Assembly (NCBI GenBank): GCA_030065935.1
Contig: JASJCP010000009.1
Coordinates: 62,001 to 126,000, forward strand
Source: Xenococcaceae cyanobacterium MO_167.B27
Lineage (GTDB): Bacteria; Cyanobacteriota; Cyanobacteriia; Cyanobacteriales; Xenococcaceae
Length of the DNA stretch: 64,000 nucleotides
Reading direction: 5' to 3'
Both the position numbers and the translations under genes were made by a program. Of this stretch, positions 32,076 through 55,476 are shown one piece after another (position 1 is the first letter of the stretch; each line of letters opens with the position of its first letter). Under the pieces are notes generated by a model. It saw only the letters and a program-made list of their open reading frames with translations, had not been told where the DNA came from and searched no databases.

Positions 32076-32123
32076 GAGTCGAAGGTACTCCTCGAAGCCT
32101 GCTTCGACTTCGTCAATTTTGTC
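32076..32123 (-). repeat. Dispersed hairpin repeat, copy C (intergenic)
   Basis: On the minus strand it reads TTGACGAAGTCGAAGCAGG, then GGAGTACCTTCGACTC. Arms GTCGAAG and CTTCGAC pair. It matches copies at 38384 and 54628 that lie inside genes. The preceding 31981-32075 also contains a related AAGCAGGCTTCC stretch; nothing else is seen in this 314-bp gene-free gap. Confidence 0.75.
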
Positions 32124-37557: not shown

Positions 37558-37828
37558 AATTTTTTTTTCTGGGAACTAAATATATAATATTGTTTTTTTC
37601 CGTTTAGGATAATAGTTAATTGGTTTTAAAAGAAATCAACAAATATAATTTATTATTTAACAATACCCAGAAGGAATAATTTGGTATTTTTTCATAAAAT
37701 TTTGCTGTTTTGAGTAACTACAAATATAATTTAGCTAACAACAAAGCCCAGAGGATTTTATGGCAAAATGATCTATTGATTAGACAAGTACAATTATAAT
37801 CGTAACTTTAGTGTTTGAAATTAGTTTA

Positions 37829-39550
37829 ATGTCAAAGCTAGTTAAAAATTTTAATTTCCAGCTATTTTTAATAGCAGCGATCGCAAATGGGGTAATTTTA
37901 CGCATTATTAATCTGGGTAGTCGAGAGTTTTGGTATGATGAAATTCTATCTGTACTCCTTTCTACTGGTCAGAGAAGATCCTATTCTAACCCTGGTATTG
38001 AACCAGTACCCTTAAGTCAATATTCCACAGTTTTTCAGTTACCACCAGAGTCTTATCCTGGGGAAATAGTAGGGACGGTCGCTAATTTACTCCGTGGTTT
38101 AGCTCGTGATGTTCATCCTCCCTTCTCTTATTTGGGAAATCATTTTTGGATGCGTGGGTTTGGTAACAGTGAAGTTAGCTTGCGTGGTTTGATCGTTATC
38201 TTGAGTCTGATAGGGATTTACTGTATTTATGGTTTAGGCAAAAGTTTATTAGGCGCTCGCGGTGGTCTAATACTAGCAGCTTTATTAGCATTAAATCCTT
38301 TTTATTTATCCCATTCCCTGAATTTAAGAATGTATTGTCCTCTCGTATTGTGGGCAATCTTAAGTGCTTGGGCTGCGGTAAAATTGACGAAGTCCAAGCA
38401 GGATAAGCCTATCATAGGCGGAGTACCTTGGACAGGAAGACAACCAGACAAGGGAGAGAGTTTTGTTGCTTCTTTTTTAAACACTCGTTCTCTAATCTGG
38501 AGTGCAATACTTATCTTGTCTGTAGGCTTAGGATTTCTGACTCAGTATCTTTTTGCTTATTGGGTAATGACTTTGAGTATTTTTGTAGTAGTTTTTGACC
38601 CCAAACGCTGGTGGCTAAATGGTTTACGTTTAGGGATGGGTGTAGCTATATTTCTTCCTTGGTTTTTTTGGGGGACAATGCAACAGAGAAATAATCGTCC
38701 CGATGTTTTTCGACAAATTTCTCAAGCTGGTGGTGTCTCTTGGTTAGAACACTTACAGGATGTTACAAAAACTCTAGGAACTCATTTAATATTAGGAGAA
38801 TGGGCAACTAGCTTACCTGTGATTGTTCCCACTATTTTAGGGGCTATTGCCATAGCTTTATTATTATTTTTTACTATTACTCTCTGGCAAAAACAAGAAT
38901 TTTATCTTCTCGCTACCGCTTTAGTGTTGGGAATAGTACCCTTGATATTAGCTTTAATTGTAGATGTGTTGGGTAATAAACTTACTGTGGGTTTTGGCTG
39001 GGGGCGATCACTGATATTTATTTTACCTGGTTGTCTATTGCTAATTACCATCTGGTTAATTAAAGTAGCAGGAAAATGGCAACAACCCATAGTCGTAAGT
39101 CTGTTAGTAATTTATTTATGTTTAAATATCAGTGATTATAGTTTGCGCTCGCGTCAAATGTTTCATCAAGTAGCAGACACAATCAAGCAACAGCCTGAAA
39201 TGTCAACCCTGGTAGCCTTAAACAGTAAAGCCTGGGGTCATGTCCTAAGAGTAGCTTACTATTTACCTACAGACAATGTTAGTTTATTCGCAGATACTCC
39301 CTCTCGCTTAGGGAAATCTCTAGCACCGGTATTACGCGATCGCAATTACTCCCGCCTAATTTGGTTGCAAAGTGACGATCCCGTCTGGTCTAGACCCAAA
39401 ACCGAAACTGATAAATTAGAGTATAAAGAAAACATTAAAGCTGCAATTCCCCCTGAATATCAATTGATTCAGACTCAGGAACTATCAGGAACTATGGCTA
39501 TAGACAAGTTTACTGCCCGTACTTACATCCTTCGTCCTTCATCATCATGA
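37829..39550 (+). CDS. Multi-pass membrane glycosyltransferase (GT39/ArnT-like)
   Basis: A 573-residue membrane protein with about ten hydrophobic segments. The N-terminal SREFWYDEILSVLLS motif contains the acidic residue typical of GT-C enzymes that take sugars from polyprenyl-phosphate carriers. HPPFSYLGNHFWMRGFG and NSEVSLRG follow. Between helices, at about residues 186-206, the peptide TKSKQDKPIIGGVPWTGRQ is encoded by an inserted hairpin repeat. The last four bases (ATGA) overlap the start of the next glycosyltransferase, so the two are translationally coupled. An in-frame GTG 18 bases upstream is an alternative start. Confidence 0.87.
   Translation: MSKLVKNFNFQLFLIAAIANGVILRIINLGSREFWYDEILSVLLSTGQRRSYSNPGIEPVPLSQYSTVFQLPPESYPGEIVGTVANLLRGLARDVHPPFSYLGNHFWMRGFGNSEVSLRGLIVILSLIGIYCIYGLGKSLLGARGGLILAALLALNPFYLSHSLNLRMYCPLVLWAILSAWAAVKLTKSKQDKPIIGGVPWTGRQPDKGESFVASFLNTRSLIWSAILILSVGLGFLTQYLFAYWVMTLSIFVVVFDPKRWWLNGLRLGMGVAIFLPWFFWGTMQQRNNRPDVFRQISQAGGVSWLEHLQDVTKTLGTHLILGEWATSLPVIVPTILGAIAIALLLFFTITLWQKQEFYLLATALVLGIVPLILALIVDVLGNKLTVGFGWGRSLIFILPGCLLLITIWLIKVAGKWQQPIVVSLLVIYLCLNISDYSLRSRQMFHQVADTIKQQPEMSTLVALNSKAWGHVLRVAYYLPTDNVSLFADTPSRLGKSLAPVLRDRNYSRLIWLQSDDPVWSRPKTETDKLEYKENIKAAIPPEYQLIQTQELSGTMAIDKFTARTYILRPSSS
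38384..38433 (+). repeat. Dispersed hairpin repeat, copy A (in frame inside a gene)
   Basis: Reads TTGACGAAGTCCAAGCAGG, an inner hairpin GCCTA-TCA-TAGGC, and GGAGTACCTTGGAC. Outer arms GTCCAAG (38392-38398) and CTTGGAC (38427-38433) pair perfectly. Compared with copy C both arms carry matched substitutions. The gene stays open through it. Confidence 0.8.
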
Positions 39551-53469: not shown

Positions 53470-55476
53470 ATGAATCTTCCGTTAGGAAACAGATTAACTA
53501 CTGTAGAGCTTTATCTTAACAAGGCTCAATTACTAGAAAAAGACAATAAAATCAAAGAGGCGATCGCTATTTATCAAAAAGCAATAGAAGTTTATCCTCA
53601 TCATTTTCGCTTTTATTATGAATTAGGGGAATTGTCAACAAAATCCCAAGCTTTTACAGAAGCAATCAAATATTATAAACAAGCAATATCTTTAAATCCT
53701 CAATGGTTTAAATCTTATTACGCTTTGGGTCAAATTGCAGTAAAACAAAATAATCTAGAATCAGCAATAGATAATTACCAAAAAGCCATAAATTTAAAGC
53801 CTGATTTTTCTTGGTCATATTTTAATTTAGGTAAAATATATTATAAATTGAATAAATTAGAACTGGCAGCAAGTTTTTATCAGCAAGCTATTGAATATCA
53901 TTCTTTTGCTAAAAGTTATCACCTTTATTTAGCATTAGGAAATGTTTATCTCGACCAAGATAAAATAGATTTAGCTATTGATTGCTATCAACAAAGCCTC
54001 AAGATTAATGCTCAAGCTATAGAAGCAAAAATTAAGCTAGGTATGGCTTATTGTCGAAAATCTGATTGGCATCAAGCAATTCAAAGTTATAACCAAGTAA
54101 TTAAAATAAATCCTAATTGTCATCTTGCATGGTTTGGCTTGGGAGAAATCTTTAGAAAACAAAAATTATTAGATATAGCGATCGCGAACTATCGCCAAGC
54201 ATTAAAAATTAAGACTAACGATGTTAAAACGTTTCATAAATTACAAACTTGTTTAGCTAAAAAATCTCCCGAAAAATACCCAGATTATCAAGCTTATAAA
54301 AAAGCCATATCTGAGCAAGTAAAAGATGAGCAACTTTATTATAGATTGGGGCAAAAACTCAGCAAACAAGGATTAATTGAAGATGCCATTGAATGTTATC
54401 TGAAAGTTGTAGAACTAAATCCCAAATGTATGGATGTATATGAAACAATCTATAACAGTTCTTTGTATTTAGATAACTGCGATCGCATTATTAATGTTTA
54501 TCAAAAAATTCTGCTCAAAAATCCTAATCTTTTAATTGTTGTTAGAAATTTAGGGAAGATTTTTAGTCGCCAAGGAAAAATAGAATTAGCTATTAAATAT
54601 AATCGTCAAGTAGCCGAAACTCAAATCAAGTCGAAGGTACTCCGCCGTGAGACTGCAAAGTCTGCTTCAACTTTGTCAACATCAGCCTATTTAACCAATC
54701 ACAAAAATTTTCCTGACCCCTGTTTCTTGATTATTGGTTCAGAAAAATGTGGTACTAGTTCTTTGTATCAATATATAATTAAACATCCTAATGTTTTAGG
54801 TGCAATAGAAAAAGAAATTCACTTCTTTACGTATAATTTTGAGAAAGGATTAGACTGGTATGGCTCCCATTTTCCTCCTTTTGCGAAAGATAGTAACTAT
54901 ATCACAGGAGAAGCTAGTACTTCTTATATAGCTTGTCATAACAATGCACCTCAAAGAGTTTTTAAATTATTGCCCCAGGTTAAATTATTAGCAGTTATTA
55001 GAGAACCTGTAGAAAGAGCAATTTCTCATTATCATCAGCTAGTAAGACTTGGTAAAGAACATCGTTCTTTAGAAGAAGCAGTACAAAAAGAATTACAAAT
55101 CCTGAAAAATGTAGATGATATTTGGTCAATTAAACAAAAATATTGGTCTGAAAGTAAAGGTATTTTATGGCATAGCCTTTATGTTTATTTTTTACAGCAA
55201 TGGCTAAATGTATTTCCTTCGGAACAATTGTTAATTATCAAAAGTCAAGATTTATTTACAAATCCCCAGAATACTATGGAACAAGTCTTTGATTTTCTAG
55301 AATTAAGTAAATTTAAACAACAAAATTACAAGACTTATAATTCTGGCGGTCAATATAATCAATCACAAGAAAAAATTGTTAAGCAAATGAAAAATTTTTT
55401 TGAACCACACAATAGAAAACTAGAAGATTTAATCGATTTGAACCTCCCTCGCGGGACACGAGGGATTCCCTTTTAG
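53470..55476 (+). CDS. TPR protein with C-terminal sulfotransferase domain
   Basis: A 668-residue protein. About ten TPR repeats fill residues 10-390 (IYQKAIEVYPHHFRFYYELG, YKQAISLNPQWFKSYYALG). The sulfotransferase domain (about 415-668) has the PAPS 5'-phosphosulfate loop IIGSEKCGTSSLYQYI and the 3'-phosphate motif VIREPVERAISHY. The linker at about 387-404 (KSKVLRRETAKSASTLSTS) is encoded by a dispersed hairpin repeat. The C-terminal NLPRGTRGIPF comes from the end of the adjacent TnpB element, so the native last few residues are probably lost. Such proteins may sulfate glycans; the substrate is unknown. Confidence 0.9.
   Translation: MNLPLGNRLTTVELYLNKAQLLEKDNKIKEAIAIYQKAIEVYPHHFRFYYELGELSTKSQAFTEAIKYYKQAISLNPQWFKSYYALGQIAVKQNNLESAIDNYQKAINLKPDFSWSYFNLGKIYYKLNKLELAASFYQQAIEYHSFAKSYHLYLALGNVYLDQDKIDLAIDCYQQSLKINAQAIEAKIKLGMAYCRKSDWHQAIQSYNQVIKINPNCHLAWFGLGEIFRKQKLLDIAIANYRQALKIKTNDVKTFHKLQTCLAKKSPEKYPDYQAYKKAISEQVKDEQLYYRLGQKLSKQGLIEDAIECYLKVVELNPKCMDVYETIYNSSLYLDNCDRIINVYQKILLKNPNLLIVVRNLGKIFSRQGKIELAIKYNRQVAETQIKSKVLRRETAKSASTLSTSAYLTNHKNFPDPCFLIIGSEKCGTSSLYQYIIKHPNVLGAIEKEIHFFTYNFEKGLDWYGSHFPPFAKDSNYITGEASTSYIACHNNAPQRVFKLLPQVKLLAVIREPVERAISHYHQLVRLGKEHRSLEEAVQKELQILKNVDDIWSIKQKYWSESKGILWHSLYVYFLQQWLNVFPSEQLLIIKSQDLFTNPQNTMEQVFDFLELSKFKQQNYKTYNSGGQYNQSQEKIVKQMKNFFEPHNRKLEDLIDLNLPRGTRGIPF
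54628..54680 (-). repeat. Dispersed hairpin repeat, copy B (in frame inside a gene)
   Basis: The minus strand reads GTTGACAAAGTTGAAGCAG, inner hairpin AGACT-TTGC-AGTCT, then CGGAGTACCTTCGACTTG. The outer arms GTTGAAG and CTTCGAC pair with one G-U. It is inserted between the TPR and sulfotransferase domains without breaking the frame. Confidence 0.8.

Follow-up and report, generated by a model that had tools for sequence, protein, structure and literature searches.

A hairpin repeat of about 45 nucleotides inserted 3′ of TTNAC words in Xenococcaceae/Pleurocapsales-type cyanobacteria, best read as a small non-autonomous mobile element

We found that a dispersed hairpin repeat in a 64,000-nucleotide stretch of DNA from the Xenococcaceae cyanobacterium MO_167.B27 (the whole stretch analysed, hereafter the window) enters DNA directly 3′ of a TTNAC word, in half of the cases TTGAC, without target duplication. 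We read it as a non-autonomous mobile unit of about 45 nt, built as one two-part hairpin, and lean, if not by much, towards its being moved in trans by Y1-type single-strand transposition. With an exact rule for its target, empty sites for comparison and covariation specific to one strand, it offers a clean case for the spread of hairpins of about 45 nt.

Three copies lie in the window, as a first-pass annotation of this DNA had reported. That annotation delimited copy 1 as 50 bases on the plus strand (38384-38433), an extent that is wrong by five because the initial TTGAC (38384-38388) is already present at empty sites; it is the target word left of the insert, a TTNAC word of the kind kept at other copies’ empty sites. 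The unit itself, GAAGTCCAAGCAGGATAAGCCTATCATAGGCGGAGTACCTTGGAC, occupies 38389-38433 (45 nt, covariance model 65.1 bits, E=3.4e-12). Its outer stem pairs GTCCAAG (38392-38398) with CTTGGAC (38427-38433), the latter forming the right end of the unit, and its inner hairpin spans unit positions 15-35 (38403-38423), where the GCCTATCATAGGC part pairs in both the predicted fold (−16.2 kcal/mol, z −2.6) and the covariance model. Copy 2, on the minus strand, comprises a 45-nt unit, AAAGTTGAAGCAGACTTTGCAG...CTTCGAC (54630-54674, 64.6 bits, E=4.2e-12), and the target word TTGAC (54675-54679); one of its outer-stem pairs is G.U, and its inner stem is weak. Copy 3, also on the minus strand and intergenic according to the list of open reading frames (ORFs), is a shortened unit of 34 nt (32078-32111, 56.3 bits, E=2.8e-10) from which the inner hairpin is deleted, with TTGAC at 32112-32116. 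The 18-base left motif TTGACNAAGTNNAAGCAG has exactly three perfect matches in the window, which are these three copies, and when at most two mismatches were allowed it matched four times compared to 0.18 expected from dinucleotide shuffles; GGAGTACCTTNGAC gave a like result, and the covariance model run over the window returned the three copies alone (E=3e-12 to 3e-10).

Many more copies are present beyond the window. Across the 7.0 Mb genome, the core AAGCAG-N4,24-GGAGTACCTT occurs exactly 15 times, compared to 0 for the reversed control, and a covariance model built from 14 of these 15 copies produced 68 matches at E≤0.01, leaving about 63 non-overlapping copies after removal of both-strand duplicates. 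The repeat is present in 24 of the 25 genomes searched within the family (Xenococcaceae/Pleurocapsales-type cyanobacteria), the single exception being G014, with up to 51 covariance-model matches in one relative; carriers include Hyella patelloides LEGE 07179, Pleurocapsa sp. CCALA 161, Pleurocapsales LEGE 06147 and 10410, Myxosarcina and Xenococcaceae MAGs. It is rare outside this family. Among other families of the order, one of 15 genomes had a match, a single weak one, and when the sample was widened to 293 genomes of the order (E 1e-5), matches were nearly restricted to the family; of the roughly 266 genomes outside it, 5 carried a copy or two each.

To delimit the unit, the joined flanks of copies in the MO_167.B27 genome were searched in relatives and in the genome itself, and occupied sites were aligned to empty ones. 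Empty sites were recovered at more than a dozen places, and at three of these near-identical or multi-copy empty versions exist in the same genome: the site on C69 is empty on C214, C96 and C25 (empty ACCATTATTGACCCAGG on C214 versus occupied ACCATTATTGAC-(44 nt)-CCAGG on C69), the host repeat on C37 is empty at seven other places (CATTACCCCAG), and the site occupied on C255 is empty on C91. Several further copies have empty sites in relatives. These alignments define a unit of 44-46 nt, usually 45 (111 of 148 units), consisting of GAA, a 7-bp outer stem with a CAGG/TAC internal loop, an inner hairpin of about 9 bp and a terminal ..SGAC; among the 148 copies, 127 start with GAAG, and the right end is ..GAC in 129 and ..CAC in 7. 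The target word is TTGAC in 74 copies, TTAAC in 14 and TTTAC in 10, followed by CTGAC, GTGAC, ATTAC and others, with T at −5 in 120 copies, T at −4 in 139, A at −2 in 145 and C at −1 in 133. A pyrimidine occupies +1 in 134 of 148 copies, compared to a background of 66% for the base that follows TTNAC words in the window (p=3e-12), with the caveat that four columns of 3′ flank are part of the model. An excess of A was also seen at −8, a position outside the model (57% versus 30%, p=6e-12). At TTNAT sites the units still end in GAC, indicating that the target word remains to the left of the unit and that no duplication arises; a 2-bp duplication of AC was rejected on the same sites, which retain AC at the right end. 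In one tandem pair (L047, G000:C158:6204-6297), the second unit directly abuts the TTGGAC that closes the first on the right, which looks to have been used as its target.

The first-pass annotation had also proposed that substitutions in the stems are matched to keep pairing, and that selection acts on a folded strand. Evidence for compensatory change is thin from the three window copies alone, but it is upheld, together with selection on the fold, in a gapless stack of 103 distinct 45-mers (consensus GAAGTCGAAGCAGG..TACCTTCGAC). With the caveat that members were gathered by a structure-aware model and that related copies are not independent, 92.5% of stem cells in this stack are paired compared to 84.4% in shuffles (maximum 85.7%), and both sides have changed in 126 cells compared to a shuffle mean of 44 (maximum 58). 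Corrected mutual information was dominated by stem pairs, the top ten including 22-28, 7-42, 23-27, 6-43, 8-41 and 9-40, and the compensated outer arms comprise GTCGAAG/CTTCGAC, GTCCAAG/CTTGGAC and GTCAGAG/CTCTGAC as well as GTGCAAG/CTTGCAC, GTCACCG/CGGTGAC and GTCATCG/CGATGAC. The covariation is thus strong. It is also strand-asymmetric, with 117 G.T cells versus 35 A.C cells, indicating that the written strand is the folded strand. A stable hairpin with strong covariation might also be expected of a vertically inherited structural or regulatory RNA that does not move, such as a terminator or a riboswitch-like element. We consider this extremely improbable: the precise empty sites in the genome itself and in relatives refute vertical inheritance, identical 45-mers occur at three unrelated loci, and many copies lie in coding sequence in either orientation. 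An Rfam scan of the window matched no family, giving no indication of a known RNA.

Insertion into genes without breaking them, which had been suggested from two of the window copies, extends to nearly all genic copies. When copies were strictly counted as genic only in a joined ORF of 150 codons or more, with no fewer than 25 codons on either side, we obtained 37 genic copies, 36 of which are a multiple of three in length and read open; the lone frame-shifting copy is a 46-nt unit. By comparison, 83 of 109 copies elsewhere have lengths divisible by three (Fisher p=0.003). The genic copies, 23 sense and 14 antisense to the gene, are read in several frames on both strands, indicating that the peptide is not the conserved thing. 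Copy 1 lies in frame in a plus-strand ORF (37811-39550) encoding a PMT_2-type (dolichyl-phosphate mannosyltransferase-like) glycosyltransferase of 579 aa (Pfam PF13231, E=4e-11), in which it contributes KSKQDKPIIGGVPWT after ..AAVKLT; the two same-genus orthologues do not contain the unit, and a variable linker occupies this position in them. Copy 2 lies in a plus-strand ORF (53470-55476) whose 668-aa product is a TPR and sulfotransferase protein by Pfam, and tblastn alignment to the orthologue in a family relative shows a single gap of exactly 15 residues at the insert. Outside the window, an RNase HII, for which an empty orthologue was found, and a CobW-like GTPase also carry copies, both proteins being named from sequence motifs. 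Orthologues thus lack the insert rather than sharing its peptide, and the four proteins constitute a natural experiment in which 15 residues have been inserted into working proteins. In three genomes, units with different arms apparently sit at the same place in related proteins (L089, L232 and L249, ..STFDSLEMDRYSDLH), either as an old inherited insertion or at a hot spot.

The conserved folded strand, with its many G.U/G.T pairs and compensatory changes, would also suit a repeat that spreads as RNA, a 45-nt structured transcript being turned back into DNA at TTNAC sites, a route proposed for the small dispersed repeats (SDRs) of Nostoc, which the present repeat resembles. However, single-stranded DNA also tolerates G.T pairs, and both gene orientations are used. 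In addition, a sharp junction 3′ of TTNAC with no duplication, no tail and a pyrimidine at +1 is the signature of a Y1 transposase (PMC5934647), and we therefore view an RNA route as quite unlikely. IS608 inserts precisely 3′ of TTAC and leaves this word on its left, has a preference for C at +1, and carries the guide AAAG 5′ of its hairpin (PMC5934647). In the single-strand transposition that we favor, the written strand, when single-stranded, would form the hairpin, which together with its conserved CAGG/TAC internal loop would be recognised by a trans-acting Y1 enzyme (HUH, IS200/IS605-like). One cut by this enzyme would follow the left-hand TTNAC and the other the ..SGAC at the right end, and the unit would be joined into a new site between TTNAC and Y. 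The GAAG at the foot of the hairpin may act as a guide, the part that AAAG plays toward TTAC in IS608; GAAG does adjoin the hairpin, and guide-target covariation is weak. Genic copies would be retained if their length is divisible by three and their frame open, and most others would persist intergenically.

We found no clear helper for such movement. Searches with the covariance model within about 1.5 kb of 30 Y1 loci in the MO_167.B27 genome and beside 50 Y1/RAYT loci of relatives returned nothing convincing. Mutual comparison of the Y1 loci showed at least three resident copies of one IS605-type group with TTGAC at the left boundary, and across genomes the count of this group’s left-end motif shows only a modest correlation with the number of elements (rho=0.45, p=0.024). 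The TTGACATCCTCNCC motif is absent from genomes with 15-35 copies of the repeat (G007, G010, G020 and G021), and that IS group is therefore not clearly the helper. Matches to the left end only or the right end only, inspected for larger elements, revealed no IS: those that could be classed were degenerate or long-loop copies or chance-like, and one that adjoins a Y1 gene is a truncated copy between two ISs. Replication-arm strand bias showed no obvious pattern in complete genomes, including G004, in an analysis for which the origin was not located. Because no helper was found and the repeat has a single hairpin, we hold an IS200/IS605-like mode of working with only moderate confidence and do not claim membership of the IS200/IS605 family.

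The outcome of the flank searches would also be expected if the repeat were moved by an unrelated enzyme (a serine or tyrosine recombinase, or a nuclease with repair) or by a Y1 enzyme belonging to an element that no longer has these ends, and CGTC-tagged REPs have likewise been reported without a dedicated transposase (PMC3733652). We judge this unlikely, since the junction signature is that of a Y1 single-strand transposase and not of a double-strand cut followed by repair. An integron-like cassette was rejected as well, since there the cut would fall inside one arm, whereas here both hairpin arms are inside the unit. We tentatively raise a further possibility, that the single 45-nt hairpin is self-contained, with the two sites of cleavage, the guide and the structure bound by the enzyme all within it, and is moved in trans by a dedicated, as yet unrecognised host-family enzyme, its length and open frames having been shaped by genic survival. 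If this were true, the single-hairpin unit would be among the smallest complete mobile DNA units.

Comparison with known systems leaves a small non-autonomous mobile hairpin as the best name for the repeat. The SDRs of Nostoc, reportedly described by Elhai in 2008, are very small mobile repeats whose structure is backed by compensatory changes; their units are 21-27 nt. The present repeat shares with them a very small size, mobility, a cyanobacterial host and compensatory changes in its structure, and is set apart by units of 45 nt, another lineage and a defined TTNAC rule. To our knowledge, no enzyme is known for either SDRs or CGTC-type REPs, so that their spread is still a question. IS200/IS605-derived elements (IS608 and ISDra2 ends, and palindrome-associated non-autonomous derivatives) share insertion 3′ of a short word that is kept on the left without duplication, a pyrimidine or C at +1, and a hairpin whose foot carries a short word resembling a guide. 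They differ in having separate left- and right-end hairpins, whereas nearly all copies of our repeat have one two-part hairpin of about 45 nt, and no autonomous copy with the repeat’s ends was found beside the Y1/RAYT loci searched.

REP/REPIN sequences with their RAYTs (GTAG- and CGTC-tagged) resemble the repeat in their short imperfect hairpins, compensatory stem changes, high copy number and sometimes genic location. In contrast to these, the repeat has no GTAG tag, starting instead with GAAG, occurs mostly as single units and does not flank the RAYT loci searched; the RAYTs at L288, L314 and L297 carry other repeats, and those examined closely have other, GTAG-tagged repeats. GTAG REPs were accordingly rejected by sequence, as were CGTC-tagged REPs, which are defined by a CGTC tag, a stem starting AT and a CCA tail (PMC3733652), none of which is in the consensus. 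At two Y1/RAYT-like genes (L314:1570-2160 and L297:1441-2025), GTAGAGACGTTCC..GGAACGTCTCTAC repeats lie beside or inside the coding sequence, and the synteny of L314 is conserved in several family members. The likeness to Rickettsia palindromic elements drawn in the first-pass annotation holds for behavior, both being palindromic units found in frame in functional genes, but not for size (about 45 nt versus about 150 bp; PMC10969869), sequence, phylum or the TTNAC insertion rule.

Several related hairpins were observed in other genomes of the group. In relative G003, 69-nt copies (L204:461-538, L205:436-513 and L206:529-606) contain an extra hairpin of about 24 nt (GATATSCG..TATCC) in the apical loop, which would seem to be a second tiny element lying within the first. 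In relative G005 (L207:438-539 and L208:437-535), enlarged loops have brought the units to 93 and 90 nt, lengths that are still divisible by three. At L094, L095, L098, L216, L212, L217 and L218 of relatives, the core GCAGGCTCCG/CGGAGTA follows differing 5′ prefixes (TTGACCAACGGTCAGAG.., CGCGGAAGGCGGTGAACG..), and these sister repeats suggest a wider superfamily. Finally, relative G015 has a degenerate GCAGG..GGGAATA hairpin with an AT-rich outer stem (L288:30-81, 20 bits, E=0.03) upstream of a cbiX-like gene.
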